Shown here: in pieces, positions 32,621-49,611 of the stretch
How the letters are laid out: every line of letters starts with the position of its first letter
How positions within the stretch are numbered: position 1 is the first letter of the stretch
From: Peronospora farinosa
Taxonomy: Eukaryota > Oomycota > Peronosporomycetes > Peronosporales > Peronosporaceae
Direction: 5' to 3'
Length of the DNA: 64,000 bases
Assembly: GCA_947646735.1 (NCBI GenBank)
Contig: CANTFK010000180.1
Coordinates: 124,001-188,000, forward strand
The notes under the pieces: model-generated
Databases searched by the model: none
Told to the model about the DNA's origin: nothing
Seen by the model: only the letters and a program-made list of their open reading frames with translations
Translations under genes and position numbers: made by a program

Positions 32621-35192
32621 CTTCTATTGGTTATTGACGTTATGAACGACTTGTTCTGTGGGCCACTCACTATATGCGATGATGTTTAGAAATTCTCTTT
32701 GGGAGGTAAACAAAAAAACGCATATCTGATTGGGCAATTGAGACGGGAGGGGGGAAGTTGTAGGAATGATTGTATGTAGTGACGTAATGAGTGTTCGTAA
32801 AACGTGCACTTCAACGTCAATAACCTACTTACCGTTGTCTTCTGCACAAATTTCTTTTATTTATCGCTATCTAGGACATTCTTTAGAAGCTGTTGGGAAG
32901 AGAAAGATTTATAAAGAAAGAGACGACTTTGACGAGAATCGTGCACTCAGATGTTGTAGTCTTCAGAGCTTGGCTCTCCTCTTTGTAGCGTATTAGACGC
33001 TGCACTGTGGGGTTACCATTACTACTGCTAGACTCGTTGTTGTTTTGACGCGTTGTAAGGATGGTTCCTGATCCATGATTCTCTTTGTCATCTCCATGCT
33101 CGTGTTTCGAGTTTTTACGCTTTTTTGTGATAACTACGCTTCGTGACAGAGCGCGTTAATGCATGGAGGACATGAATGCGTTGTAACCAGTCTAAGGCGA
33201 AGTGTTACTTTTGCTCGGTATCTGAGCTCAACAGCACTTCTCTTCTTGTGGTAGAGTTTTGGATTTGGCTTCGTCGAAAGTCTTGCCACAGGCACAATCC
33301 GTCGATTGAAGCACTTGCGAAGGATATGAATGAAATTATATTAAGGATCCCATCACCAATGATAGACGGTGAGGCTTCTTCCACGGACCAAATTTTCGAG
33401 GATCTACTGATTGAATGAAACTTATCGAGAATTTCTTTGCTAAGCAAGTAAATCATCCGTGACGGGATGACGGGATTTCTATCGAAATGAACATGGAGGA
33501 AGAAGATCTCAAGCATCATCGTTTTAGTTACGCGAACATTCGAGCGAAGCTGGCGAAAGAAGCAAAAAAAGAAATGCATGCTTGCTCAGTGGTTGCAATT
33601 ACCTTTCGGATCGCATGACTCATTCAGCGATAAAGTTGCTATCGTTTGCTTTTATTCATGGGTGACACGCATGTACTAACGATACAACTGCATGTTCACG
33701 ATACCTCATAAACGCTGACTTTTTCGAATTGTATCTATCGACGACCACAACACAATACTTCATGTGATGTTGGGTCGCCGACATTTTCGACGTGGAGCCG
33801 GAGTAGTACCTTACAGCAATTGGTGTCAATTTAAGCACAGGACGCGTACTCTTTTCCATAACACTCATTTTCGATAGCAACGTCGTTTCAATATTGTAAG
33901 CAAGCTGATATGCGCAGTTAGAAGACTCGAAGAAATCACAGATATTTTCGATAGCGCTGTTCTCGCGGGCCATTTAAAGAAGGTTTACAACATGTAATGG
34001 GACCCACAAAGAGAACAGTTATCTTGACTACCATAAATGGGCTAGTAATTGAATTCACCCAAAGCCGGATATGATGGAAATGCAGTGAAGCCGTTCATTA
34101 TAGTGACCCATCATCTTCCTCCTTTAAGATAAGCTACTAGATGAACTACGACACCACTGAACTCCTTCCACAGCGTTATGTCGAGTCTCGCATGGTCCAC
34201 AGCTATGCATGTAGCAGTGCTAAACGCCCACGTGACTTTTATCTCGGTCTATAAACTGACAGTAACATTGAAAAAGTGAGGGCACTAGTATCGAGCAACA
34301 ATTTTAAACAAAAGCCATAATTACTCGAATATGTTTCGCATCGTCGATCTCAATGTCCTCTGGCCGAGCTCTCAAATTGATCCAGATCATTTCACTGATC
34401 TAATGGACAACTTATCTAACCACAGTGTTGCATCATCTCCACCTTGGACGCATTGGACACCAAAAACATCCGTTACGGCTCGTTAACTCAGCTAAGTCAC
34501 TGTTACCACGGCACGAAATCATTGCGTACGATTGTAACGGTCGTATGCGAGATACACTGTCGGATGCAGTACAACATGCTGCAGATGTGAGGTGATAGAT
34601 TGAAAATAGGACATGTCGTTCTAAACTATACTATAGACTCTGTTTTACAGACGAGATAAATATTCTGCGCTCGTTGCAAGTCTTCCCGATACACTACTTG
34701 TCAATCATGACAAAGTGATGTCGGCTCTATCACGTAAGATCAGGTGGGGTGACGGTGCGCTTACGTCTCCACTAAAAAGTTTTTACACTGCCTCTTATTA
34801 AAGTGGTAGTTACATAAAGTAGTGAGCAACGATCTACTCACTGACGTAGTGGTCTTGACGAAAGGATTGTATAACTTCAACTTGCTCTTTTATGGTCAAT
34901 GCACCTGCGTGTCAAGCAAGTTGAAGTTGATCGCTTTAAAGAGGGAAGATCCACTGTTCGAATGGACTACACCAATATGTGTTATTTACACGAACTACGA
35001 TGAGTGGCCGGTAGTCGTTGTCGCTGTCCAGCCAATCACAGCATTTGTATATGTCAGCCACACGATTCTTTTGTGACAAAAATACAACATGCGAGATTTG
35101 TAACATACTAATACTGTGTATAGCGTTGCTGATAAGCTCGTGACCATCTATTTATAAATGGCTTCTAACCGTTCCCGCCCACAACACGCACG
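32621..35192. other. Intergenic, no supported gene
   Basis: About 2.6 kb. Frames at 33176-33418 (+) and 33656-33973 (-) have no domain I recognise. The left end is the NFS1 promoter. A 14-bp inverted repeat lies at 34873-34928. Confidence 0.4.
34873..34928. repeat. 14-bp perfect inverted repeat
   Basis: AACTTCAACTTGCT at 34873-34886 and AGCAAGTTGAAGTT at 34915-34928, separated by 28 nt. There is no coding context; it is a possible trace of a small transposon or a hairpin. Confidence 0.8.
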
Positions 35193-35202
35193 GCTCACTT
35201 TC
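35193..35202 (+). promoter_or_regulatory. Initiator-like element of the ubiquitin-like/eL41 gene
   Basis: GCTCACTTTC followed by a pyrimidine-rich stretch resembles the oomycete initiator (GCTCATT-pyrimidine core). It lies about 165 bp before the start codon. A 5'UTR intron from GTGCGT (near 35234) to a TAG acceptor near 35340 is possible, as in many ribosomal protein genes; this is inferred. Confidence 0.35.
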
Positions 35203-35364
35203 TGCTGACTGCTCTGCTTGGAACATCGTTTCGGGTGCGTCACTTAACTAAGACTTCATAGTACTACATCATCATTTTTAGCTCAAAGAATGCCGTACTT
35301 ATAATTTGTATGGCGTTCTATTTTTGTTCGGTGACTCTAGCATCTGAGCATCCAGGAGGGAAGA

Positions 35365-35661
35365 ATGCAGCTTTTCGTAGAGACCCTTTCGGGCGCCCCG
35401 CTCACACTCAGCGTCGCGGCGGATGCCTCGGTAGCTTCGGTTAAACAGGCCGTGGAAGATGTCGAGTACATCCAAAACTTCCGTCTGGTCTGTGCCGGCA
35501 AACAGCTTTCGAGCGGTTCACTCGCTGATTACGCTATTGGCGAGTGTGACACGCTGAAAATGTTGCTGTCTGTGAACGGTGGTATGCGTGCCAAGTGGCG
35601 CAAGAAACGTATGCGTCGTCTTCGTCGCAAGCGCCGAAAAATGCGTCAACGTGCCAGATAA
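35365..35661 (+). CDS. Ubiquitin-like domain fused to ribosomal protein eL41
   Basis: 98 residues, single exon, ATG at 35365. Residues 1-73 are a ubiquitin-like domain that aligns end to end with ubiquitin (76 residues): it starts MQLFVETLSG, keeps AGKQL around Lys48, has LADYAIGECDTLKMLL, and ends in VNGG. Lys6, 11, 29 and 63 are replaced, Ile44 is Val and the tail is LSVNGG instead of LRLRGG, so it is not true ubiquitin and is unlikely to be a normal conjugation tag. Residues 74-98 start MRAKWRKKRMRRLRR and differ from the 25-residue eL41 I know from animals and yeast only near the C-terminus. The GG-Met junction is a classic deubiquitinase cleavage point, as in the ubiquitin-eS31, ubiquitin-eL40 and FUBI-eS30 fusions. 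The likely role is to make and chaperone free eL41 for the 60S subunit or intersubunit bridge. I know of no described ubiquitin-like/eL41 fusion. Confidence 0.93.
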   Translation: MQLFVETLSGAPLTLSVAADASVASVKQAVEDVEYIQNFRLVCAGKQLSSGSLADYAIGECDTLKMLLSVNGGMRAKWRKKRMRRLRRKRRKMRQRAR

Positions 35662-36087: not shown

Positions 36088-39000
36088 TTAATACTTCACA
36101 TTAGGATCGTAGTTGAGTATCCAAGCGGCAAATGCAGAGGCTGAAACGGACACCCGTCGGAATAGAGTCTGTGGTCGCTCAGTGACAGAATATATACGAT
36201 TTATGCTTTGAGGTGGTTGATCTGGAGCTCTGGAAAGTGACTGCTGGGTGCCACGTTCCAAGTCACTCGAGAACTCGTCATCGTCATTGTAGTCGTCTTC
36301 CACACATCCAGTGGCTATTTCGTCAAGATTGTCCTTCTTCTTCTTGTTTTTATCGTCCCTGTGCTTGTCTAACATCAAAACAACCAGGTCCTCACTTCGT
36401 GATGTGGTCGGTCTGTTACGTGTTGACAGCAACGGTCTCATCTTCGTGTCTTGCTCGTATGTCTGGCTAGTCGATAATGGAGCTGCTCCGGACATGGAGC
36501 CCGGACGCGATAGAATAGGAGACAGTATCGGACTTGCGGGTGTACTTGACTCTAAATTTGAAGTCACACCTTCGATCTTGTAATTGTTCAAGACCCGGAA
36601 CGCTCGCTTTCGTTGCAGCTTTTCTTCTTCACGTCGCTCGAGACGCTGCGTGGGCGTGTCAAACACCCACATTGTCTTACCGTCGCTACTACGAAAATCG
36701 CTACTACCTCGCTCAGTCTCGGATGTGAATCCTTCATGATCACTGTCACTATGTGCATCACCCTCAGGAATTTGATCAAGACCAGAACCTTTTGACGCGA
36801 GTTTCGTCTTATGCTTCTGCTTGCCGTGTCGACGCAGCTTCTGGACAGAACGAGTGAGCAAATGAAAGACTTCGGAGATGTTCGAGTCATAGTGCTTCTC
36901 AAACTTGTCCAGCTTAATTTTGTGGTTCAGCTCCAGAATTTTCTTCTCACGAAGGCTGCACACATGGAGGTTCACATCCGAGTCTTGAGTACGTGTCGCC
37001 TCCGTATTGCTACTATTGCTGCCCACACCTGATGATCTAAGCTGCGTTAAATCGTCATCGCCACTATCACTCTGTCTTCTAGATCGAGGTTGGTCCGATT
37101 GCGTCGTGCCATGGAACGATAGAAAACTCGTCAAACTGCGACGAATGCGATCGTGGCGCAAAGCGTCAAGGCGTTTTTTCTCCTGGTACGCACAGAGTTT
37201 CTCCATTTTCTCCATGTGGCTCTCAGCTCGCTCGACAAGTACCTCCCAGCGTTCACGAAGTTGCTCAGATGTGTACAACTCAAATTGAGAATCGTAATGG
37301 TGTCGCTTTGCCATTAGATCATCAAGAACTCGAATCAGCTCCCACTTGGCACCCACACGTTCAACGACAAGTACTAGGAGCTCATCGTTAAAGCAGTCAC
37401 AATGTTTAATCCGCTCTGTACAATATGGGCACAAGTCCTTCCAACCCCATGTCTTGATGATCAGATACCATGCCAAGTCTAGAGCAAGTCCCAGGAGGGA
37501 CATCCGCATGATTGCCGCGAGTACTCCAAACCACATGAACTTCTTCAGGAACAAACAACTACGAAAAGCCCAAATGTAAAAGATCGGAACCTGCGCCAGT
37601 GTAAGCAGTAGGACCACTAAAAACTGCAACAAGAACGCCAACCGGAATGAAAAGCCTTTCAGGTCATCGCCAGCTGCCTTTGCCCGAAAGTACTTGCGTC
37701 GTTGACGAAAGATCAACTTAAACAGCTCCTTGAAGACAGCTTTACCCGCAGACGGTAGAATCGAGATCAGAATTGCATATAGCACCACTGAAGTAAAGAT
37801 CGTGATGTCCGTACCCCAAGAATCTCGCAGCATCACAATAATGAACAGCACGTAGAAAGTGATGTAGAGTGAGCACACGATGATCAGTGTTCGCTCGCCA
37901 CGCGAAAGTTGTTCATTGCGATAGGGGCAAAAGATCCACGTAAAGTAGTTTTCATGACGCCACCACGTGTAGAACGGCTCAAATGGCCGTCGAAACTTTT
38001 TCCAACAGCATGGTCCACAGAGCCTAGTTTTCGGCACCTTTCGGTCCCATGGCATCCGTTGCCAATAGTCAACTTCATTCTCTGGCACATCTAGTTCACG
38101 CGAATAAATGCGTTCGAGGTTCTTCTGCCAGCTCTCACAATGGAGAATCATTTGGAAAATACGCAGTCCGAAGAGCGTAATGATCAAATACGGTAAGAAC
38201 AGTAGCAAGTAACTGCCTCCTAGCCAACCGGAAGACCTACAGGCAACTGGCATCGGGTTCACTGACAGGTACGTGACGTTAAAGTGATCCGAAGTGACCT
38301 GGTTCTTTACTTTTTCTTTTTCAAGGCTGTAGATCTTTTTATCCGAGTACACGCTCGTTGGAAGTTGCCCGGGTTGACAATAGTCTGCTGTAGGATTGCG
38401 CTCAAGGTAACACGGTTGCAAAACAAAGTACATTGTCTCCTTGATTGGGTTGTCAATGTACGTGTGCGGTAAGTACGCGTATGTCGTGCGTAGTGTGGTG
38501 CCGGCCTCAATGTACTCAAATGGTTCACCTTCGATGTAGTGCTCGTACTCGTCTTCGTTCAGCAGCAGCGTATTGAAATATGACGAGTTCGGGTTCGCAC
38601 TAGCATTCAAAGTATCAGGATGTGGCGTCTCAATGGTGTACGTGAGACGGAGATCAACCTCTTCTAGGAAATGGAGGAACGCATAATCCTCTGTGACCTG
38701 AACGTCTTGAACCGTGAACGCATCCAGATGCAGTACTTCATTCAGCTGCAGTGAAGACAGAGAGATACCTAGCCATAGAAGGACACCTACACCAATAAGC
38801 AGCCACATCCAAAACTGCACACAGCCTCGACGCTTGCTGAATCTCGTTCCCATTATGCCAGTCCATAATTTCTCGTGTTCTTTGAGCACTGGTCGGTCAT
38901 GAATGTACGACAACCTAATGGTATGGTGCTGTTCTTGTTCAAAGTCTTCAACGTCATCATCGTTATCGACGCGACTATCTCGAGGCTGAAGTGGAATCAT

Positions 39001-39918
39001 CACAGGGTTAAGCTGAATATTCGGTTCGTGCCCTATCGACTTGGAGTAGGCGATATAGGCCTCCAGCAGTTCGGTGTTGATTGTCTCGTCATTAAATGCG
39101 GCTTCGACCTCCTCCTCTTCTTCTTCTTCTTCTTCGTCACCTGACGGACTAAAGACATCCACATCATACGCATTTGCTGACCCAGATTGCCGCAATTGAG
39201 CGCGTAGTGAATTGCCGTGACTTCTCGTCCTGCTTTTTCTTGCAGATGATCTCCTCTGCTTAAATCTGTCGAACTGTACTGGTTGGTGCGTGTTGGCCAA
39301 ATGCACCAAATCCTCAAACAAAGATCGGTTTTCTCTCCGTCGATCCCGTTGCTCTAGCGTCTCATTTTCTCGATCAGGTGGGTCAAGAGGCACCGCCACC
39401 TGCGTCCTCACTCTCCTCTTTTGATTCTGTCTCTGCTCCCATCCACCCTCCACTTCATCTGTAGTCAACGCTGAGTCAGACGCTGTTCTCCGTCTAAACA
39501 CCCATCGTAATAGTTCAATTCCTTCTCCACTTGTGTCACTGAATCTTTGTCTCCTTCGTTCATTACCTCTGTCACTGCTCATGGTGTTACCAGTGCTCCA
39601 CTGACTCTCTGGTTCTTCGTCGGTCTCCTCAACCGCCTCTGTAGCAGTCGAAATGGGTCCGAAGAAGGCACTAGCAATCGAGCGATGGTGCATCTCACGC
39701 GTGCTGCTATTGTAGCTGCTCACGCTCGGATTGCTGCGTTCACTCCACGTTTCTTCAAGCTCGGAGTTTTCCTGAACTTCCAAAAAACACCTGGTCGCGT
39801 TCAGCGGCGCGTTCGATTCAAAACTCGCTGACGCAGGTCGTGCTAAAGTTGCCGCCGCCGCCGCATTTGCCTCGGCAATCACGTCCGGGGACAAAGGAGA
39901 ACGAGCATGCGATGTCAT
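36088..39918 (-). CDS. Large six-pass membrane protein
   Basis: 1276 residues from the ATG at 39918; the frame reaches GTG at 39951. Single exon. Residues 1-375 are charged and disordered, with acidic runs. Membrane segments near 375-398 (WMWLLIGVGVLLWLGISL), 575-600 (SYLLLFLPYLIITLFGL), 690-712 (TLIIVCSLYITFYVLFIIV), 720-740, 775-802 and 810-838. A loop of about 180 residues between the first two helices carries NAS/NSS/NVT sequons and several Cys, so it is probably extracytosolic. One long first loop followed by five clustered helices resembles polycystin/TRP-type architecture, and ERTLIIVCSLYITFYVLF recalls PKD1-like helices, but I see no clear pore motif. A coiled coil (residues about 895-960) and a long Ser/Arg-rich tail follow. 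It is uncharacterised; channel or signalling at a membrane is only a guess. Confidence 0.8.
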   Translation of the reverse strand: MTSHARSPLSPDVIAEANAAAAATLARPASASFESNAPLNATRCFLEVQENSELEETWSERSNPSVSSYNSSTREMHHRSIASAFFGPISTATEAVEETDEEPESQWSTGNTMSSDRGNERRRQRFSDTSGEGIELLRWVFRRRTASDSALTTDEVEGGWEQRQNQKRRVRTQVAVPLDPPDRENETLEQRDRRRENRSLFEDLVHLANTHQPVQFDRFKQRRSSARKSRTRSHGNSLRAQLRQSGSANAYDVDVFSPSGDEEEEEEEEEVEAAFNDETINTELLEAYIAYSKSIGHEPNIQLNPVMIPLQPRDSRVDNDDDVEDFEQEQHHTIRLSYIHDRPVLKEHEKLWTGIMGTRFSKRRGCVQFWMWLLIGVGVLLWLGISLSSLQLNEVLHLDAFTVQDVQVTEDYAFLHFLEEVDLRLTYTIETPHPDTLNASANPNSSYFNTLLLNEDEYEHYIEGEPFEYIEAGTTLRTTYAYLPHTYIDNPIKETMYFVLQPCYLERNPTADYCQPGQLPTSVYSDKKIYSLEKEKVKNQVTSDHFNVTYLSVNPMPVACRSSGWLGGSYLLLFLPYLIITLFGLRIFQMILHCESWQKNLERIYSRELDVPENEVDYWQRMPWDRKVPKTRLCGPCCWKKFRRPFEPFYTWWRHENYFTWIFCPYRNEQLSRGERTLIIVCSLYITFYVLFIIVMLRDSWGTDITIFTSVVLYAILISILPSAGKAVFKELFKLIFRQRRKYFRAKAAGDDLKGFSFRLAFLLQFLVVLLLTLAQVPIFYIWAFRSCLFLKKFMWFGVLAAIMRMSLLGLALDLAWYLIIKTWGWKDLCPYCTERIKHCDCFNDELLVLVVERVGAKWELIRVLDDLMAKRHHYDSQFELYTSEQLRERWEVLVERAESHMEKMEKLCAYQEKKRLDALRHDRIRRSLTSFLSFHGTTQSDQPRSRRQSDSGDDDLTQLRSSGVGSNSSNTEATRTQDSDVNLHVCSLREKKILELNHKIKLDKFEKHYDSNISEVFHLLTRSVQKLRRHGKQKHKTKLASKGSGLDQIPEGDAHSDSDHEGFTSETERGSSDFRSSDGKTMWVFDTPTQRLERREEEKLQRKRAFRVLNNYKIEGVTSNLESSTPASPILSPILSRPGSMSGAAPLSTSQTYEQDTKMRPLLSTRNRPTTSRSEDLVVLMLDKHRDDKNKKKKDNLDEIATGCVEDDYNDDDEFSSDLERGTQQSLSRAPDQPPQSINRIYSVTERPQTLFRRVSVSASAFAAWILNYDPNVKY

Positions 39919-40698
39919 GTCGGACGAGCGGCTAATTTTGGAGTGATACACAATTAGAAAAGCGTAGGTGTAACGTCAATTCGGTGGTAAGTCGCGTACA
40001 TAGTCAGGGATGTTTATGCAGACTAGTGAAAACACAATGTACATAAATAGGAGCTAGAAAGACCTTCCCGCAGCTATACTGACCAATTAAAAAGCGTAGA
40101 TACGACCCGATAAGACGACGAGTCACTTCATGTTTACTGTAATTAAACATTAGAAAAAAAATTCCGTCTATTTCTAGATAATAAGCGAATAATTCAGTGC
40201 TGTCCAATTATTAGCTTCAGCAACACATATCCACTTGCGAGTAAAGCATGAATGAGTTATGTAACTTATCTACTATACACTTATTAAACCCGCTGTACCG
40301 GCACGCTCTTCCTCCACCATGTGAACAACACTAGTATCGTTGTTAGCAGAGACACAATAACTATGGTCATGATGTGGCCAATTATTACCAAGCAACCTGT
40401 GGTGCAAGCATTCAATTACGAGTCTCTCAGCTTTTTCAAACAGAGCCACGAGAGAGAAAGATCGATAAATGGAAAAAATACGTCCGTAAGCGTTTTATTT
40501 CTAATGCTGCACTTGATAGCAATCATCTCTTACTTTGCAGTAGCAGTCAATGCGAGTGCACAGGACTTCAAATGTCTCGATATCACTTAAACTTCTGTAG
40601 TTGTTAACCTTGTTTCAACGTGTAGAAGTGATGCTACGTATATTATTAAACGGAGCTAAGATGCTTTTTCTACGACTTCTTTAATAAAAAACTCGTGT
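39919..40698. other. Intergenic, no supported gene
   Basis: Promoter side of the membrane-protein gene and flank of the non-LTR element. Nothing else recognised. Confidence 0.45.
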
Positions 40699-40800: not shown

Positions 40801-41960
40801 TTAAATACTAGGTATAACTAGTCCTCGGACAGCCGAGCGTCGTCGCGCAGAGTCTTGTCTCGAGATGATCAGGTTCCGTGGCGTCATAGCGGGTCCCTGA
40901 GGTTCGTAGTTGTCGGCTTGAGAGGCCTCCAGCCAGTGGTTGACATCATGGTCAAGGAATGCCGAAGCCTCCTTGACAACACCTTCCTCAGCGGAAGCGT
41001 GCACTTGAATTGAGGCTCCAGTGTCCATAGCGATATTCGCCAGTCGATCCGCCATTTTGTTGTATGAGCGATAGTGATGTCCCCAGCTGGAGACATCGAT
41101 ATCGTCAGCAAGTGCTCTTGCCTCTCGGAAAAGAAGGGCCAGGTGTGGCTTGCGTGGAGGATGGTGCGTCCGAAGCTGCGAAAGCACGAGCGCACTGTCC
41201 CCCACGACATGGAGAGGTGAGTAGCCGCTAACCTTCGCTTGTCGAAGCCCGTGCACGAGCCCCCAGTATTCAGCGACATTGTTCGTGGTATTTGCAGAAC
41301 CGTAAGCCATGCTCGATACCCACACGACGCATGCTGCGTGCGTCTGAATGTGAAGTTGGACAATGACGGAACCTGCTCCGCCCGGTCCAGGATTTCCTCT
41401 TGACCCCCCGTCGAAGAAGAGCAGGTAGAAAACCCCAGATAGAGTGTCAAGCGGCAGCGCTCGCAAGGGTGGAGGATTGTCAAAGCCGATGAGGATATCA
41501 GCAAGCGCCGACCGTACTCGTGCGAATAGGTATCCGTCTACCCCCATGTCCGACTGATATGTTGAACTTCGAAACCGTGTAACCGCTCGTCGAAATTGTG
41601 TCCTTGCTCTTGCGTCGTGTACTTCCTGTGGCAAAAGTGAGTCTTCCAAGCGGCGGAGACGCTCAGCCCAGATGGAATGTAGTGTCGTAGAAACGAGAAA
41701 ACGCCAGAGCTCACGCGTTGCTGGAAAAACGGCGTCCTTCGCTCGAGACAAATCTACACTGGGTTCGATAGCGTTTTTGATGGCATTCCATGCAGAACTC
41801 GGAATACTCGGAAGGTCCATGCCAAACACCCAGACGTGAAGGTCCGCCTCCTCCAAATCGCCTAGCTTTCGCCACCGTTCAAGTAGATAACCCCAATGAC
41901 GCCGAGCGCTAGGGCAATTCCAGAATACATGACTAGCCATGGCCAGTAAGGATGTCGGAC
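40801..41960 (-). pseudogene. ORF2 C-terminal part: zinc finger and archaeal-type RNase H
   Basis: About 380 codons, the continuation of ORF2 after a frame change near 42030. The first residues complete a C-x4-C ... H-x4-C finger (LSCPDPACP ... SHVFWNCPS). RNase H lies at residues about 170-315: catalytic Asp in FFDGGSRGNPGPGGAG, Glu in TNNVAEYWGLVHGL, Asp in HVVGDSALVLSQL and a last Asp in NKMADRLANIAMD. The GGSRGNPG form and the absence of the basic protrusion indicate the archaeal type. It removes RNA from the RNA-DNA hybrid during retrotransposition. Confidence 0.9.
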
Positions 41961-42016
41961 ACGCTGGGTCGGGGCAAGATAGATCTTGGTTAGCCCAATT
42001 CCATAGCGGGAAGCTG

Positions 42017-43891
42017 TTACTCTTCAGACGATAAAGCGTCTGCGCTGGTCGGGAAAGAAGCCCGTATTTTACGGATGTCTCTCCACTCGATCAGAGATGT
42101 ACCTGCTGCAATCACTTGGAAGTCCGGCTTCTTCACGCGTTCGTCGCAAATGCGTTTGCCCTCATCACTTCGCCTGCGGGAAATGATCTTTTTGAATTTT
42201 CGTCGTTGCGGCCTCCATCTTCGACGGCCAGCCCATAGGTGTACAACACGCGTAAGCGTTGGATGCGCACCAAAGTGGACAGTAATTCCACTGTCCAGAC
42301 ACGCTGCGGTATCGCAAGCAGCCATAGATGAGACTGTAGCCACCCCACCCGCTATACCCGTGTCGAAGTGCGATACCGATGTACCGTCTCGGTCGAGGAG
42401 CCAAGTATGATATTGGTGGACCTTTGTCGAGTACGCCAACAATGCCCCCGATTCAAACGACCTGTATACGAGTGCTGGAAAATTGTATAGAAGGGCAAGG
42501 CAGAAGTTCCCAAAATGCCGACGCTTCGCCATAGAGTGGGTAGCCATGTCACGCTTGGGCGAAAATCGGACGATACCACTCTGAGTCGTCTTCCAGGTGA
42601 ATATGTCGCCAAGGTACTTGTGTCCCCTCGCAAAATCCGCTCCATTCAAAGTATAAGCCTTGCCTCTGCGATCCCTCAGCCACGACATGTCCGTCAGCGT
42701 TGCGTGTACGATCCATCTGGGTTCAAAACGACCTGATGTCGCTACTTCAGCTCTCATCCCGGCCCGCAACTTGTCATCAAGTATACGGCGGACATCAATT
42801 GTGACACTACCGTCTCCATTATAGTCGATTAAGGCTCTTGATGTAAAAGAGGCGGCCCTTCGGCAGACCTCCTGGACCTCTCCTTGGCGGGCATGTCGAG
42901 CAGCTGAAAGCCCAACAATTTTAGAACCGGTTAACCATAGCGTCACTTGGAGTCGAGGCTCCTGGTCTTGGGTCCAACATGGCGTGATGTAAGCCGGACC
43001 CGAATCAGTAGAGCCCCATAGAAAGTCTCCGATCAGTAAATCTCTCGAAGAAGCTGTAGCTGCCCACTGTCCAACAGCGGTTGCCGCCATAGTCATTAAT
43101 TCCGTACGAATACACGGCACCGATAGCCCACCTTGCTGTATCGGTAGTGAAGCCATCTCTGAAGGGACCCACGGTCGGGACCTCTTGCCATCATGGACGC
43201 TCCATACAAAGTCCATAATGAAGCCCTCCAATCTATTAATCATGGCGGGAGGTGGCCAGCAGTGCCGTGCTAAGTAGGTAATTTTGGGCACCGCGATGGC
43301 GCTGGCGATGCGAGCTCGTTGTTCCACCGTATGAGTCTTCTCTCGTGCTAGTGCAAGTCGACACCATAGAGATCGTATGCATTTACACCAGTTGTCAGCT
43401 ACCGCATCCTGTTGGCCAACAAGTACACCAAGATACCTGCATGATCCGCTTGAAGACTGTACATTGAGGCCACACGCGTCCAAGGGCAAAGATGATCCGC
43501 GAGGGTCAAGCTCAATGATAATAGACTTCGCTCGATTCGTCAGCAGACCGGAAACAGCTGCAAAGTCTTCGAGTATCGTAATAACAGGCAAAACCGCAGA
43601 CCGATCGCGAAGATAAACCGCCGTGTCGTCAGCGTATCCCGAAATTTTAATGTCAGTGGTTCTCCCCCCAGAAGTAAGAGGTATCCCGCGGATTTCATCC
43701 CTCTCTTGAATCACTCGATAGACACTATCCAAGGCGAGTATAAACAGAAGAGGAGCAAGAGGGCACCCTTGCCGTATGCCGCAGTGAACGTCACGTCTGC
43801 TTGAACGGTACCCATTCACAATAATCGACATGTCGTGTTTCGGTGTAATGCCGCCACGACTGCTACGAATTTTGGCGAGAAGCCATGCCAA
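42017..43891 (-). pseudogene. ORF2 middle part: reverse transcriptase palm and thumb
   Basis: 624 codons in one frame; the first codons overlap the preceding part out of frame. RT motifs: GIRQGCPLAPLLFILALD, the catalytic SGYADDTAVYL and KSIIIELDPRG, followed by the thumb and a long connection domain that ends at a TAA (42017) just before the zinc finger in another frame. One-base shifts at about 43830 and 42030 separate it from its neighbours. Confidence 0.9.
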
Positions 43892-46137
43892 GTCAACGCC
43901 GAAAGTAGAAACGGACGTTGCAACGTGTCGTATGCCTTGGCGAAATCGAGAAGAAGAACAATGGATCCGTGTAGATCGCTGTCAGCACTCGCCGCTTTGC
44001 GAACCGCCGAAAAAATGTCAAGAGCTGTATGGATCGACCGCTTCGGGACAAAACCAACTTGAGCTGGCAGAACAATATGCGACAGCATCGGCCGAACTCG
44101 AAACGAAAGGATCTTTGTAAATAACTTGTAGTCACTGTTGAGAAGCGCGATCGGCCGATGATCAAGAGGCAAGGCGGAAGCCGCGGTTTTCTTCAGACAC
44201 TGAATGTTCGCTTCACCAAAAGACGTCGGAAACACGCTGCACTCCATCCATCTAGTGTACAGTGCTGCGAGAATTGGCACGAGCGCGTCAGCATAATCAC
44301 GGTAAAAGGTGTTGTTGATTTCATCTGGTCCTGCGGCTTTCCCACGTTGAAGTCTCTTTAAAGCCGCACACACATCTTCAGGAGATATAGCTGACGTCAC
44401 TATAGAGTCATCAACCCGGACCGGTGTGGAGGCTCGTTCCAGAAATGCAGCGGTAGCATCTGGACAATCAAAAAATTGAGTCATAAGATGCTCCCAGCCG
44501 TCTGCCATTTCATTTGCCAATTCCTGCGACCGATTCGACCCGTATGTAGCTTGTCCACCCAAAGAAACGATAGTGTTGTCCTGAAATTTTGTCGACACCC
44601 GCGCGAAGAAACGACGAGAAGTCTCGCCTGGAGAGTATGTGTGCTGGACAAGAAGTCGCTCTTTCTTGGTTCTCTGCCATAATCGTCGACACTCCGCAAC
44701 GTTTCGACGAAGTTCCGCAGGATTATCGACGGGGCTGGGTTGGTCGCATATCGTTTGAGCACACGCTATTGAGGTAGCTGACGAGCGCGCCTCCAATAGC
44801 GCCGCATCCAGACGGACATAGAGGCGCTTCAGCCGCTGTCTGTAGCTGCGCGTCAGACCTTGGCGGGCTGTCTTTGTAGTCGCCACAAGAACTTTGCGTA
44901 ACTTGATCTTCCATCCATCCCACCAGTCGGCCAATCGTCTAGCCGTTCGATAGTCCGACGTCGGAACTGAGCTGGATTCATCAACTTCAATCTGTGCCAG
45001 CTCAATGGCCGAAATAATGGCGCTGGTCGCGGCCGCTTGTGCACAGCCCGGCACTAGATATACGCTCCGTGGCTTACGTACGCGCACAACATGACTTGGT
45101 GCCCCAATCCGTATACTGATTCCATTGTGGTCAGCGGCTGGGCCAGGTACAGACAGATCGACGTCTCGAACCCAATCAGCATGAAGAGCACTCACGTACC
45201 ACCGATCAAGTCGAGAACTGGCTGATCCACCTCCAGGCAAAGTGTAGAAATAGGTGTGTGCCGCCGCATGAAAGGCTGCTACGGCCCTCTCTTCTTCCGC
45301 TCGCTCCATGTCATCTTCGAGTACATCGCAAAGTTGTGCGCGACCTAGAAGCCGTCTCAGCGCCTGCGAATCATGTCTGCCGGGCGGCGAGACAAAAGAT
45401 CGGTCAAGTCGAGGCACCAATGTGCAGTTAAAATCCCCGCCCACGAACAAGGGTCCGTCGTGATCCAGCAGGTGATGGCGAAGCATCTCGAAAAACGCCT
45501 CCCGTTCAGGCTTACCACTCGGGGCATATACGTTGACAACAAGAACGGTCTCGCTTCGAATATTAATTTGAACAGCCATCCAGTGCGGTGTCCAATGTAT
45601 CTCATGCCACGGTTCCATCTCAGTAATCGACGAGTACGGATTAAGTAAAATCGCAACCCCTCCACGCGCTGCTTCGGACTCGGTCCATCGAGTGCGTCCG
45701 GGCTTGTCCACGAAGCCCCATGTGGTGTTGTAAAACTTGTTCAGACTTGCTGCTTCACCAACAGAGACCCGCGTTTCTTGTAATAGGACCAAGTCGATAG
45801 CACCCCGTGATTCGCGCTGCCTAAAATGGCCAAACCATTCTGCACAGCGTTCCGGATGCTTGGGGAATCCCGCGACATTTTGTGAATGCAGACCGATGCT
45901 GTTTTCGCGTGGCTTTTGAGAAGTCTTCAACATGCCCCGATGACGACGTCGAAGTGTATCTGCCCTTGGAAGGTGAAAGGAAGAAGACTCAACCCTGTCT
46001 AGCGATCTAAGTCCCCCTACAGAATATGGAAAAGAGGGACTGGGATCCGCCCCCCCTACCGAATCAGCCCCTTGCGCAGCCGAGGTGCCCTCAGTACTGA
46101 AGGTCCAGCAGCCGACCATCGCGGGCAATAAGGTCAA
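43816..46137 (-). pseudogene. ORF2 N-terminal part: APE endonuclease and RT fingers
   Basis: 773 codons. The endonuclease starts near residue 80 with LHSQNVAGFPKH, then LLQETRVS (catalytic Glu), VNVYAPSGKPERE, GGDFNC, SSRLDRWYVS and the C-terminal ADHNGI His motif: all APE signatures. The RT part begins EINNTFYRDYADALVPIL and has HRPIALLNSDYKLFTKI, QVGFVPKRSIHTA and LLLDFAKAYDTL (first catalytic Asp). It nicks target DNA and starts target-primed reverse transcription. The true first Met is uncertain. Confidence 0.9.
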
Positions 46138-46306
46138 TCGCCGGCTGCCAGTTGGCAGGTTTGCATAAAATGCTGGATACAGCCGCGCGCACCTCTTTAG
46201 AGAGGTGGTATAATGCCGCTTTGGACTGTGGCATCACCACCTTTGTCTCATCCTCGACAGGTGCAAGATGAGATAGCAATACACACAGGACATTGAGGAC
46301 GCCCCA

Positions 46307-48475
46307 TTAATCCAAGTCCGGAAGCGGTTCCACGACAGTCGCGCACAGCAACTCCGGCTGTAATTTGTGGAATTTTCTCCAGCGCGTTATGTTGTCCGTC
46401 GTCTTCCATCGAATTTGCCCAGACTGACCTTCTGCCGTTGCAGCCCAACCCGTACACAGCTCTCGAAGCTTTTCATCAGCGTGTGTGGTATGTTGGCGTA
46501 TCACAGACAATTGAGACTCGCTGTTGATAGAATGTCCAAAGGTTTGGAGGGATTCCCTCGACATCGAGGCGAGGTAAGCAATTGGGTGCGGCAGGTCACT
46601 GACAAGTGCCGCCAATTCCAATGCACACGCTTTAATCCATGCGGATTGACCCTTTGGACCAACTGGCAGTGTAGTGGGTACCGCAGAAACCACTTTGCGC
46701 TGAGAAACCCATCTACGAATCGCAGCAGTGTTCGCCGAAATGTGTTTCGTGCCCTCCGGCACAGCGGCGGCCGCTACTGCAGCCGATGCAGTGTCAGGCA
46801 CCTTGCGCACTCTAGTTGCACGTAACGTCTGATCGTGAGTATCTTGAGTGCGGATGAAATCCATCGGGGATCTAAGTGCCACCTGTGTACTCGATTCCCC
46901 ATTAGAGCCAATGGGTCGTGTCAGCAGACCGTAAGTGCCCATGGCTGGGTCAGCTATATTTCCTGAGTAGGCCTTGAGCTCGTCTTCAATAGCTTTAGCT
47001 AGCTCCGCTGGTATAGGGACACTGGCGGCGCATGAGGGAGGCGTTACGGCCCCTCCATCAATATCATCCATGCGCATGGTATTTCCAAACGTAGATTTGC
47101 TTACCGCCATACTTACATCGAGATCATGGTGTTCCAAGTAGTCCGGGTCCTGGGGGCATGTCGGAGAAATTTCCAATGGAGCCGAATCAGGTGATGCAAC
47201 CCCAGGTGGGACCGCACCCGGTACTGCCTTGGTCGTCACACTTGGCATGCTCCGTTTGCGGCGAACATAAGACGACAACATTCGCTGTATCGTCGCGCGA
47301 CCTCTTTCCCTAATTTTCTCTGCCGTCGCAGCTGGCATCTCGCTCGGCGGTGGGACAACCCCCTTAACCGCATGCTCGATCTCGGGCGTCTCTTTCGGTG
47401 TAATTTTTGTCAAGCGGCGTGTCAATTTTAGTAGTTTGTTCGTGGCCGTTGCTGCTGCTGTCTCCGCTCTGTTCGCCTCTGCACCAGCGGTGCGATATTT
47501 GTACTCCAATGTAGGCAAGTCACCATTCACATCGTCGAGAGTTGTATTAAGGTCGAGACCTGTAGCTTCGCGATCAATAGCTAATTCCAACGCATGAGCG
47601 TGAGCCTCGAAGTAGCAAGCTTTCTTATTTTCGGCATTGAACTTCTTTTTTGCAGCGGTTGAAGTCAGTAGTTCGACTGTGCGTTGTGCGTCCGCAACTT
47701 GAGATTGAGCCACCGCTAAAGCCGTAACCTTGGATGACTTCTCAGACAAAGAAAGAATTGCAACAGTGTCCGTTGCCTGATTTGCCGTGGAAGCCGTACG
47801 ATCACCTCCGATCAGGTGGTCCAGTTCAGCTACCGCCTGCGCACGCTGCTTAGTAGCCTTGGTAGTGGCGGCTGATGTCACGGAATAAGTGGCCGCGGGT
47901 GCTCTTCCTTTCGTAGAAACTGCTGGCTTAGTAGGTGAGGAAGGTTTCGTAGCCACTTTAACCGAGTTCGTCGCGCTCTGCTTGGCGGAAGATGCCGACC
48001 CTTGGGTCGACGACTTGCTGGTCCCCTCAGCTGCTTTTGACCTCGGACGTCGTAGCGGTGTAGCATTAGAAGTCGCCGCTTGAGTAGTTGAAGCCGCGTT
48101 GGGACGCGAGTCCCGCTTTTTCTTGTTCGCACCTGGGTCAAACCACCCGTCAGTAGTAGGACCAGCGGCACGTGGGGCATCGCCACTCGCCGCTGGCTGT
48201 CCACGGGGAGAAGAGGGGGGTGTATCCTCCCTTGGACAGTCTCTCGAAAAATTCTGTGAGATCTTGGTTAACAGTGGTGCCTTGCAAGCTTCATCCTTCA
48301 GCTTGGCCGTAGTTGCCTGTAATGTCTCTGCCAGGCCGGCGACATGCTGCAGGCGCTCGTTCACATCGAGGTGCTGAAAAGTCAAGACGCTGACTGTTTT
48401 GGCAACATGGTGAGTACCGATGAATTCGCGGATGCTCAAATAAGAAACCGCCCCTGCTGGCGGCGCATTTTGCAC
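46307..48475 (-). pseudogene. ORF1 C-terminal part of the non-LTR element
   Basis: 722 codons, continuous with the 48291-49190 frame after a shift near 48470. It is Ala/Thr/Ser/Lys-rich with helical stretches (DAQRTVELLTSTAAKKKF, NRAETAAATATNKLLKL) suggesting coiled coils, and ends in a compact Trp-containing segment. A nucleic-acid chaperone or particle-forming role is expected for ORF1 proteins. I see no recognised fold. Confidence 0.7.
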
Positions 48476-49611
48476 TTGAATGATACGGCGAATAACAAGA
48501 AAAACAGGGGACCCGTTGGAAATGACAATGATGATGAATAAAAAGTGTCGTGTTGGGAGTCTTGATGTGTGTCACCAACTTGATCTCTTCGGGACATGAA
48601 ACGGTATTAAAGGTAGCGACAAAGAAGTTGGAATCGTACGCCTCTGTCCCATTCAGAAACCCCCGAACCACCGACGTCACCGAGCATGACACACTCGACG
48701 AGAGGATAGCTTGGACAGTGCTCGCGGCCACGCCATGAACCAAAATTCTCACTTGATACTGCAGAATGTTGCGACTTGAAGTAGTACTGGACGTCAATGA
48801 AGTAGTGATGTCATCCCTCTCCATGGTTGCTGGACACAATAGTTGAAGGCGAGTACCACGAAATGAAATGAATTTTGTATGCCACCTCGCCGCAGCCGCC
48901 TGGTCAGGCAGAATAAAGGTGAGGCGTCGAGTGTCCGAATTGTAACACGTGCGCTTTGCCCCCTTGACTAGCTCCCGACTAAGTGGATCGGAAGTCGTCT
49001 CCCCTTCGCGGCGTTCCAGCAGTTGTAGGAGCAACGTTTTCTCAGCAATATGCTGAGGCATACGGACGGAAGGAGGCACAAGCGCGATGACCTTGCCTTC
49101 AAGGTATTCCTCAAAAAAATCAAGCATCGCAACCCGCGTGGCTCTTGGGTGCGTGCATACCAAAAAAACCGGGCGGTGACGGAAGTACAATGCCTCCCAT
49201 CAACCAAGCTGCGAGCGCCTCCTCCTCAAGTGGAATCATTGGACGCAGATCATCATCCACCTTATCAATCCAAGGTCTCGAAGCTGTGCGCACCAGTAAA
49301 GCACGTTGGTCTTGCGACCCACCGACCTCCGCCGGAGTCGAGGCGCTGTGGTCGACGGGGCCTTTTCTGTTGCCAAGGCTGGTAGGTTCGCCAGGGTCGT
49401 TTTTTCCGCCGGGTCCGTTAGGTACGCCGGGGTCGATACATTCGTCGGGGTCGATGCGGTTGCCGAGGCCGTTGACCGCAGTCGCGAACGAGACCCGACC
49501 AGCCGCCGCTGGCCCAGGACCAGGCACTTGTTTCCAATGCACTTGTGCACCTTGGCTCTTAAGTGGTGAAGGAGCATCGCCCAGCGGCACATCGCCGTCG
49601 TCAGAGTTCAT
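48440..49611 (-). pseudogene. ORF1 N-terminal part of the non-LTR element, with CCHC knuckle
   Basis: ATG at 49611 (MNSDDGDVPLGD). The Pro/Gly-rich start runs to a T7 tract near 49165 where the frame slips; the next frame continues with LVCTHPRATRVAMLDFF and reaches a zinc knuckle CFSCYSPYHSSAKC (C-x2-C-x4-H-x4-C) near 48485. This order is typical of gag-like ORF1 proteins that coat element RNA. Confidence 0.75.

Follow-up and report, generated by a model that had tools for sequence, protein, structure and literature searches.

The window analysed here is a 64,000-nucleotide stretch of Peronospora farinosa DNA, and window positions below are numbered from its first nucleotide. On its forward strand, a stop-free open reading frame (ORF) of 98 amino acids at 35365 to 35661 encodes a ubiquitin-like (UBL) domain in codons 1 to 73 and a complete eL41, the smallest ribosomal protein, in codons 74 to 98. 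An in-frame TAG stop codon lies just 5' of the ORF, at 35338 to 35340. The features of the locus are as follows.

35195..35201, + strand: initiator-like motif TCACTTT (weak evidence), fitting the oomycete initiator (INR) consensus YCAYTYY
35235..35340, + strand: predicted 5'-leader intron (GT...AG, 106 nt), from the match to Phytophthora gene models
35365..35583, + strand: UBL domain of 73 residues ending in Gly72-Gly73 (Pfam PF00240, AlphaFold2, Foldseek)
35578..35586, + strand: predicted cleavage junction Gly-Gly/Met, from junction conservation
35584..35658, + strand: complete 25-residue eL41 (alias eS32) with Met1 retained (Pfam PF05162, eL41 chains of ribosomes)
35659..35661, + strand: TAA stop codon

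The UBL begins with MQLFV and ends in LSVNGG; the eL41 part, MRAKWRKKRMRRLRRKRRKMRQRAR, follows directly, and the junction reads ...LSVNGG/MRAKWRKKR... We thus confirmed that the two parts are joined in one ORF with no linker, and both domains proposed in a preliminary description of this DNA score above their Pfam cut-offs. In the whole ORF, PF00240 (ubiquitin) covers residues 3 to 69 with 28.7 bits (cut-off, 25.4) and PF05162 (Ribosomal_L41) covers residues 74 to 96 with 33.5 bits (cut-off, 22.3). The eL41 piece alone scores 38.1 bits against PF05162 (E value of 1.5e-9), which places it in the family; it is an Arg/Lys-rich helix of 25 residues and aligns over 24 to 25 residues with eL41 of solved ribosomes. 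The eL41 chains of those ribosomes (27 distinct sequences) are only 22 to 41 residues long, leaving no room for a UBL. An AlphaFold2 model built on a 103-row alignment (mean pLDDT of 92.8) consists of a beta-grasp domain and then the single eL41 helix; the pTM of 0.66 means that it does not establish the placement of the two parts relative to each other. All 50 PDB entries listed by Foldseek for the modeled UBL are titled as ubiquitin, ubiquitin variants, or complexes (best E value of 1.9e-7; target TM score up to 0.91; rmsd of 1.1 A). Judged on this model and on the Pfam match, the UBL belongs to the ubiquitin fold family.

The nearest long frame downstream, 1,287 amino acids on the reverse strand (36088 to 39951), had no Pfam match over the cut-off and by eye resembles a multi-spanning membrane protein. 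Beyond it, also on the reverse strand, five long overlapping or adjacent frames occupy 40801 to 49190; some resemble endonuclease, reverse transcriptase, and RNase H by eye, perhaps representing a LINE-type element.

The protein is 97% identical to Phytophthora proteins, and the 5' leader can be modeled from Phytophthora genes. Splicing at 35235 to 35340 gives FLLTALLGTSFRHLSIQEGRM; two P. cactorum gene models, P0004 and P0006, have exactly this sequence, and P0005 from P. nicotianae differs from it by one residue. After this predicted splicing, no ATG precedes that of the UBL, which has an A at position -3. Such 5'-proximal introns are frequent among the ribosomal protein genes of P. infestans, at 62% (PMC4696810). 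The promoter signals are weaker: with the INR as defined in PMC3599244, two matches were present in the 465 nt searched (about 0.6 expected), no FPR partner was found, and PMC4696810 describes the INR as underrepresented in ribosomal protein promoters. CCAAT boxes, reported in 83 of 85 such promoters (PMC4696810), are present at 34972 and 35032, where about 0.8 would be expected by chance in that stretch.

A search with the full-length protein gave 654 matches at an E value of 10 or less (best, 6.3e-54), of which the best 120 were used. A second profile was built from 22 divergent members, picked in the hope of reaching relatives outside the stramenopiles; it gave 1,274 matches, and the best 120, of which 75 were new, contained no named non-stramenopile. 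Together, the best 120 of 654 and the best 120 of 1,274 matches contain 29 named organisms, all of them stramenopiles; we checked the placement of four by look-up and take the others to be stramenopiles from general knowledge. Fourteen are oomycetes: Phytophthora infestans, P. megakarya, P. cactorum, P. nicotianae, and P. ramorum; Pythium insidiosum and P. oligandrum; Lagenidium, Thraustotheca, Albugo, Saprolegnia, and three Aphanomyces. The other 15 are ochrophytes, including brown algae and diatoms: Choristocarpus, Discosporangium, Scytosiphon, Heterosigma, Chrysoparadoxa, Tribonema, Paraphysomonas, Cyclophora, Corethron, Cyclotella, Discostella, Stephanodiscus, Cyclostephanos, Mediolabrus, and Proboscia. 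Blastocystis and labyrinthulids are absent from the named rows of these two sets. The preliminary description had suggested a lineage-specific route for expressing eL41; among the 29 named organisms, the fusion is indeed lineage restricted, but the lineage is stramenopile wide and not confined to oomycetes. That description had also raised the possibility that the halves are separate transcripts. Of 195 distinct rows listed, 17 come from the source mmetsp and bear transcript-style names, indicating that a single transcript spans both halves in those stramenopiles and that one protein is derived from it.

The searches collected 266 proteins, and in 192 of these eL41 is directly preceded by 65 residues or more (the window and the first search contributed 117, and the second search 75). 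The defining arrangement of a UBL-ribosomal protein fusion, a diglycine-ended UBL directly before an intact ribosomal protein, recurs throughout this set: eL41 is 25 residues long and linker free in 192/192, and the residue before it is Gly in 192/192, as GG in 189, AG in 2, and TG in 1. The GG-preceded C-terminal eL41 that the preliminary description had proposed to look for in oomycete and stramenopile proteomes is found. P0023, the gene model from P. ramorum, is missing the UBL start, and a UBL lacking a full eL41 was seen only in P0021, which is truncated, and in P0027, which lacks the eL41 end and reads as a frame-shifted relative; the searches were not aimed at free UBLs.

A search for short proteins gave 71 matches. 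Forty-two have a stramenopile-type eL41 (RRLRR... and close forms), and in all 42, most of which resemble truncated fusions, a Gly precedes the Met (36 GG, 4 AG, 1 VG, 1 SG). The other 29 all lack a Gly at this position; those with names come from vertebrates and an insect, and the borderline P0171 (RRLRRKRRRMRKRAN), counted among these 29, has LK before the Met. The penultimate Gly is missing in 6 of the 42 short and 3 of the 192 long relatives, so a strict diglycine is not universal. In P0158, P0084, P0159, and P0161, the UBL is strongly degraded or shortened, or AG, TG, or VG replaces GG before Met1; possibly the fusion is being lost again in these cases or the protease is laxer. No clear stand-alone stramenopile-type eL41 was seen in the short-protein search. 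Few 25-residue proteins appear among the database matches, and hence stand-alone copies may exist in other stramenopiles.

In a tree of 26 named rows, 12 oomycetes fall on one side of a branch (support 93/91) and 7 diatoms on one side of another (96/93), while brown algae, Tribonema, and Chrysoparadoxa group together (93/92). The simplest reading of this tree would be vertical inheritance, probably from a single fusion event that preceded the separation of oomycetes and ochrophytes. The distribution is best read as that of a stramenopile-wide UBL-eL41 precursor.

Within the genome to which the window belongs, the fusion is the sole eL41 gene found in the assembly (46.85 Mb in 274 contigs, possibly incomplete). 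The preliminary description had asked whether a stand-alone eL41 gene coexists with the fusion, and we looked for other eL41 genes in two ways. A profile search returned one eL41 locus, that in the window; on 14 control genomes, the same profile gave one match, which was under the cut-off. A degenerate DNA pattern for AKWRKKR occurs once, at the window locus, and one for KRRKMRQ occurs there and on contig C7, where it reads KRSKMRQ and is not eL41. A separate stand-alone gene was rejected on these grounds. In P. infestans, ribosomal proteins are encoded by single genes except for L5, L6, L14, L40, LP1, and LP2 (PMC4696810); L41 is not among these six and would thus be single there, although the introduction of the same paper speaks of P. 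infestans "orthologs," in the plural, of P. sojae L41. In its main text, that paper mentions ubiquitin a single time, in connection with a conjugating enzyme. The database entry from P. infestans (P0002) is a UBL-eL41 fusion.

Four ribosomal proteins of this genome are, or look to be, encoded in UBL fusions. True ubiquitin is fused to eL40 on contig C93 (128 amino acids, one intron) and to eS31 on C204. eS30, on C49 in two copies, follows in the same frame after ...STLDLSLRLRGGG; this stretch resembles the tail of ubiquitin and can be aligned into the FUBI portion of solved FUBI-eS30 chains. The upstream exon or exons were not found within two 9.9-kb stretches around the copies (best piece, E value of 0.11). 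An inverted repeat of 1.9 kb contains the eS30 exon; its arms are 99.2% identical and about 9 kb apart (C49:53270-55169 and C49:64534-66433), and the two copies have identical 86-residue translations. A gene for a UCH-type protease is present on C205 (198 bits, a nearly full match). It adjoins, on the opposite strand, an intron-split gene that by eye is NEDD8-like and ends in LQLRGGC (C205:86800-90000).

We aligned 191 of the 192 UBLs (one, with no start Met in range, was dropped), using the ubiquitin of the same genome as the reference. Identity to ubiquitin is 22 to 49% (median, 35%) and is 45% for the window's UBL. True ubiquitin, taken as at least 80% identity and an LRLRGG tail with R72 and R74, was considered for the latter and rejected. 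The AGKQL motif is retained, LSVNGG replaces LRLRGG, and most lysines are lost, all as first described; three lysines are left. Across the family, G76 is kept in 191/191, G75 in 188/191, and E31 in 191/191; L56 (186/191), R42 (171/191), and K27 (180/191) are largely retained, and a hydrophobic residue is found at position 36 in 187, at 71 in 190, and at 73 in 190. Four other lysines fare differently (K63 and K29, 0/191; K11, 2/191; K48, 36/191). R72 and R74, which are read by the ubiquitin E1, survive in only 3/191 and 4/191, and position 72 is Asp or Glu in 127/191. USP36 also reads these two arginines (PMC10611586). Every one of the 191 UBLs has a negative net charge (mean, -7.9; range, -14 to -3; the window's, -4), compared to 0 for the genome's ubiquitin and +17 for eL41. 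Since basic residues make up 4.5% of the UBL and 14.5% of ubiquitin, with acidic residues at 15.1% and 14.5%, respectively, the acidity stems from the loss of basic residues and not from a gain of acidic ones. The UBL probably derived from ubiquitin and drifted after the fusion, and the ubiquitin E1 would no longer accept it. The family-wide losses fit the suggestion in the preliminary description that the domain serves as a carrier and not as a conjugation tag, and the window's UBL cannot plausibly supply ubiquitin.

We consider it likely, with a probability of roughly 0.8, that the product is a precursor that a deubiquitinase-type protease cuts after the linker-free Gly-Gly, releasing eL41 with its normal Met1 and leaving the UBL as a disposable carrier. 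The cut product would start with Met1-Arg2 and so would equal the normal eL41 product. The precursor would probably be translated, the UBL would fold, an enzyme of the UCH or USP type would cut after the GG, and eL41 would assemble. The ribosome exit tunnel holds about 30 to 40 residues, and the UBL may lengthen a 25-codon reading frame beyond it; the UBL might also act as a disposable chaperone in cis, its acidic fold offsetting the +17 charge of eL41 until assembly and then being removed. The known fusions offer parallels. In yeast, the ubiquitin part of the eL40 and eS31 fusions is a chaperone in cis that increases the output of its attached partner but hinders assembly when it stays on (PMC8122580). 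For FUBI-eS30, failure to cut leads to defective 40S maturation (PMC8354635), and USP36 and USP16 are the reported proteases (PMC10611586, PMC8354635). Charge compensation has been proposed for FUBI-eS30 (PMC10611586), and, by analogy, the acidity of the UBL opposite eL41 would match that idea. The arginines of ubiquitin with which USP36 makes contact (PMC10611586) are missing from LSVNGG, and a protease acting here would need to tolerate a different tail. The UCH-type gene on C205 could point to a candidate enzyme class for this step.

The fusion might instead stay uncut, so that the ribosome would carry the UBL where eL41 sits. Such a case is possible in principle, since a natural uncut ubiquitin-like-eS31 fusion has been described in Giardia (PMC8122580). 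Here, however, the Gly-Gly/Met junction is nearly invariant while other UBL residues drift, a pattern not required of a linker that stays uncut, and eL41 keeps its 25 residues from the old start in all 192 proteins. Moreover, eL41 is buried between the ribosomal subunits, where a further domain of about 8 kDa should not fit, and we regard persistence of the uncut form as decidedly unlikely. Cleavage could also liberate a UBL that goes on to work as a separate ubiquitin-like modifier or signaling protein, eL41 being a mere delivery vehicle. Retention of the fold, the diglycine end, E31, K27, and L56 over deep divergence means that the UBL is under constraint and would suit such a role. We nevertheless think it unlikely, as R72 and R74 are nearly gone with an acidic residue at 72 in two-thirds of the family, identity to ubiquitin is at most 49%, and only P0021 and P0027 carry a UBL apart from a full eL41 in searches that did not target free UBLs.

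Very little probability attaches to translation of eL41 alone from Met74, by leaky scanning or reinitiation, with the UBL as an incidental upstream frame. The start Met of eL41 is retained, and GGN-GGN before the ATG automatically puts a G at -3; yet the UBL start, with its A at -3 and first place in the predicted leader, should make leaky scanning weak, and a UBL abutting eL41 exactly and in frame in 192/192 proteins is unexpected of an incidental frame. An artefact of assembly or gene modeling, or a pseudogene coexisting with a true stand-alone eL41 gene, is close to inconceivable: we found nothing in its favor, the same architecture occurs in 29 named organisms and many further entries from several sources, and the assembly yielded no other eL41 gene. 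A chance join was likewise rejected on the best E value and on the number of proteins, 192 of 266, in which eL41 directly follows 65 or more residues.

The preferred reading, a cleaved precursor, has its closest counterpart in FUBI-eS30 (FAU) of holozoans. Both have a diverged N-terminal UBL that has lost most lysines, ends in diglycine, and is opposite in charge to its basic ribosomal partner. Cleavage by USP36 and USP16 is reported for human FUBI-eS30 (PMC8354635, PMC10611586); for UBL-eL41, cleavage is predicted. The latter differs further in its partner, in its eukaryotic clade, and in having the former start Met immediately after the GG. Membership in the FAU family was rejected, the partner being eL41 and eS30 lying elsewhere in the genome. 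Ub-eL40 and Ub-eS31 (UBI1-3, UBA52, RPS27A) are likewise joined head to tail to a ribosomal protein at a diglycine, but they carry true ubiquitin (LRLRGG) and provide much of the ubiquitin pool (PMC8122580), whereas this UBL lacks R72 and R74 and is 45% identical to ubiquitin; neither the ubiquitin part nor the partner matches, and this class was rejected as well. Fusions to ribosomal P1, actin, and other partners in algae (PMC6332867) are also lineage restricted in protists but involve other proteins, and the main text of that paper makes no mention of L41.

The preliminary description knew of no natural fusion with eL41. This does not hold in full, since a 2021 review, PMC8122580, lists eL41, with eS8, eS19, and uL1, among rare ubiquitin partners that it calls anecdotic, a statement repeated in PMC11354881; among the papers listed or read from a full-text collection of 5.39 million open papers, these two alone were seen to name eL41 as a ubiquitin partner. 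The survey in PMC8122580 set a minimum of 80% identity to yeast ubiquitin, a filter that should exclude the clade-wide stramenopile UBLs at 22 to 49% identity, and its Ub-eL41 entries should be something other than this family. No description of the family itself was found among those listed or read papers, with subscription literature mostly outside the scope. Our verdict is that UBL-eL41 is a real, deeply conserved UBL-ribosomal protein fusion, new as a form of an established kind.

We lean, somewhat beyond even odds, towards a broader proposal: that stramenopiles as a whole gave up the stand-alone eL41 gene, locking it before the oomycete/ochrophyte split into a precursor with a UBL carrier of its own that is acidic, nonconjugating, and not described elsewhere, and that ribosome assembly in this group then needs a dedicated UBL protease step. 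If so, UBL-eL41 would join Ub-eL40, Ub-eS31, and Ub-like eS30 as the fourth ribosomal fusion and would be a character common to diatoms, brown algae, and water moulds. The reason for making ubiquitin as fusions is called a mystery in PMC8122580; a carrier stripped of the conjugation features of ubiquitin is an implausible ubiquitin supplier, and UBL-eL41, whose ribosomal part is both the smallest and very basic, would be a further natural case separating the chaperone idea from the ubiquitin supply idea.

The P. sojae RPL41 promoter is a component of several oomycete transformation plasmids (PMC11386421, PMC10156060). Its native product is presumably this fusion, which would explain its natural cargo on the assumption that the promoter is that of the P. 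sojae ortholog of the window gene.

Among the eL41 chains in the PDB, 5xxu_m, 3j79_g, and 7ase_D, which we take to be apicomplexan and kinetoplastid entries, are 34 to 39 residues long, with 9 to 14 extra N-terminal residues; N-terminal additions to eL41 thus exist elsewhere in forms that do not involve a UBL.
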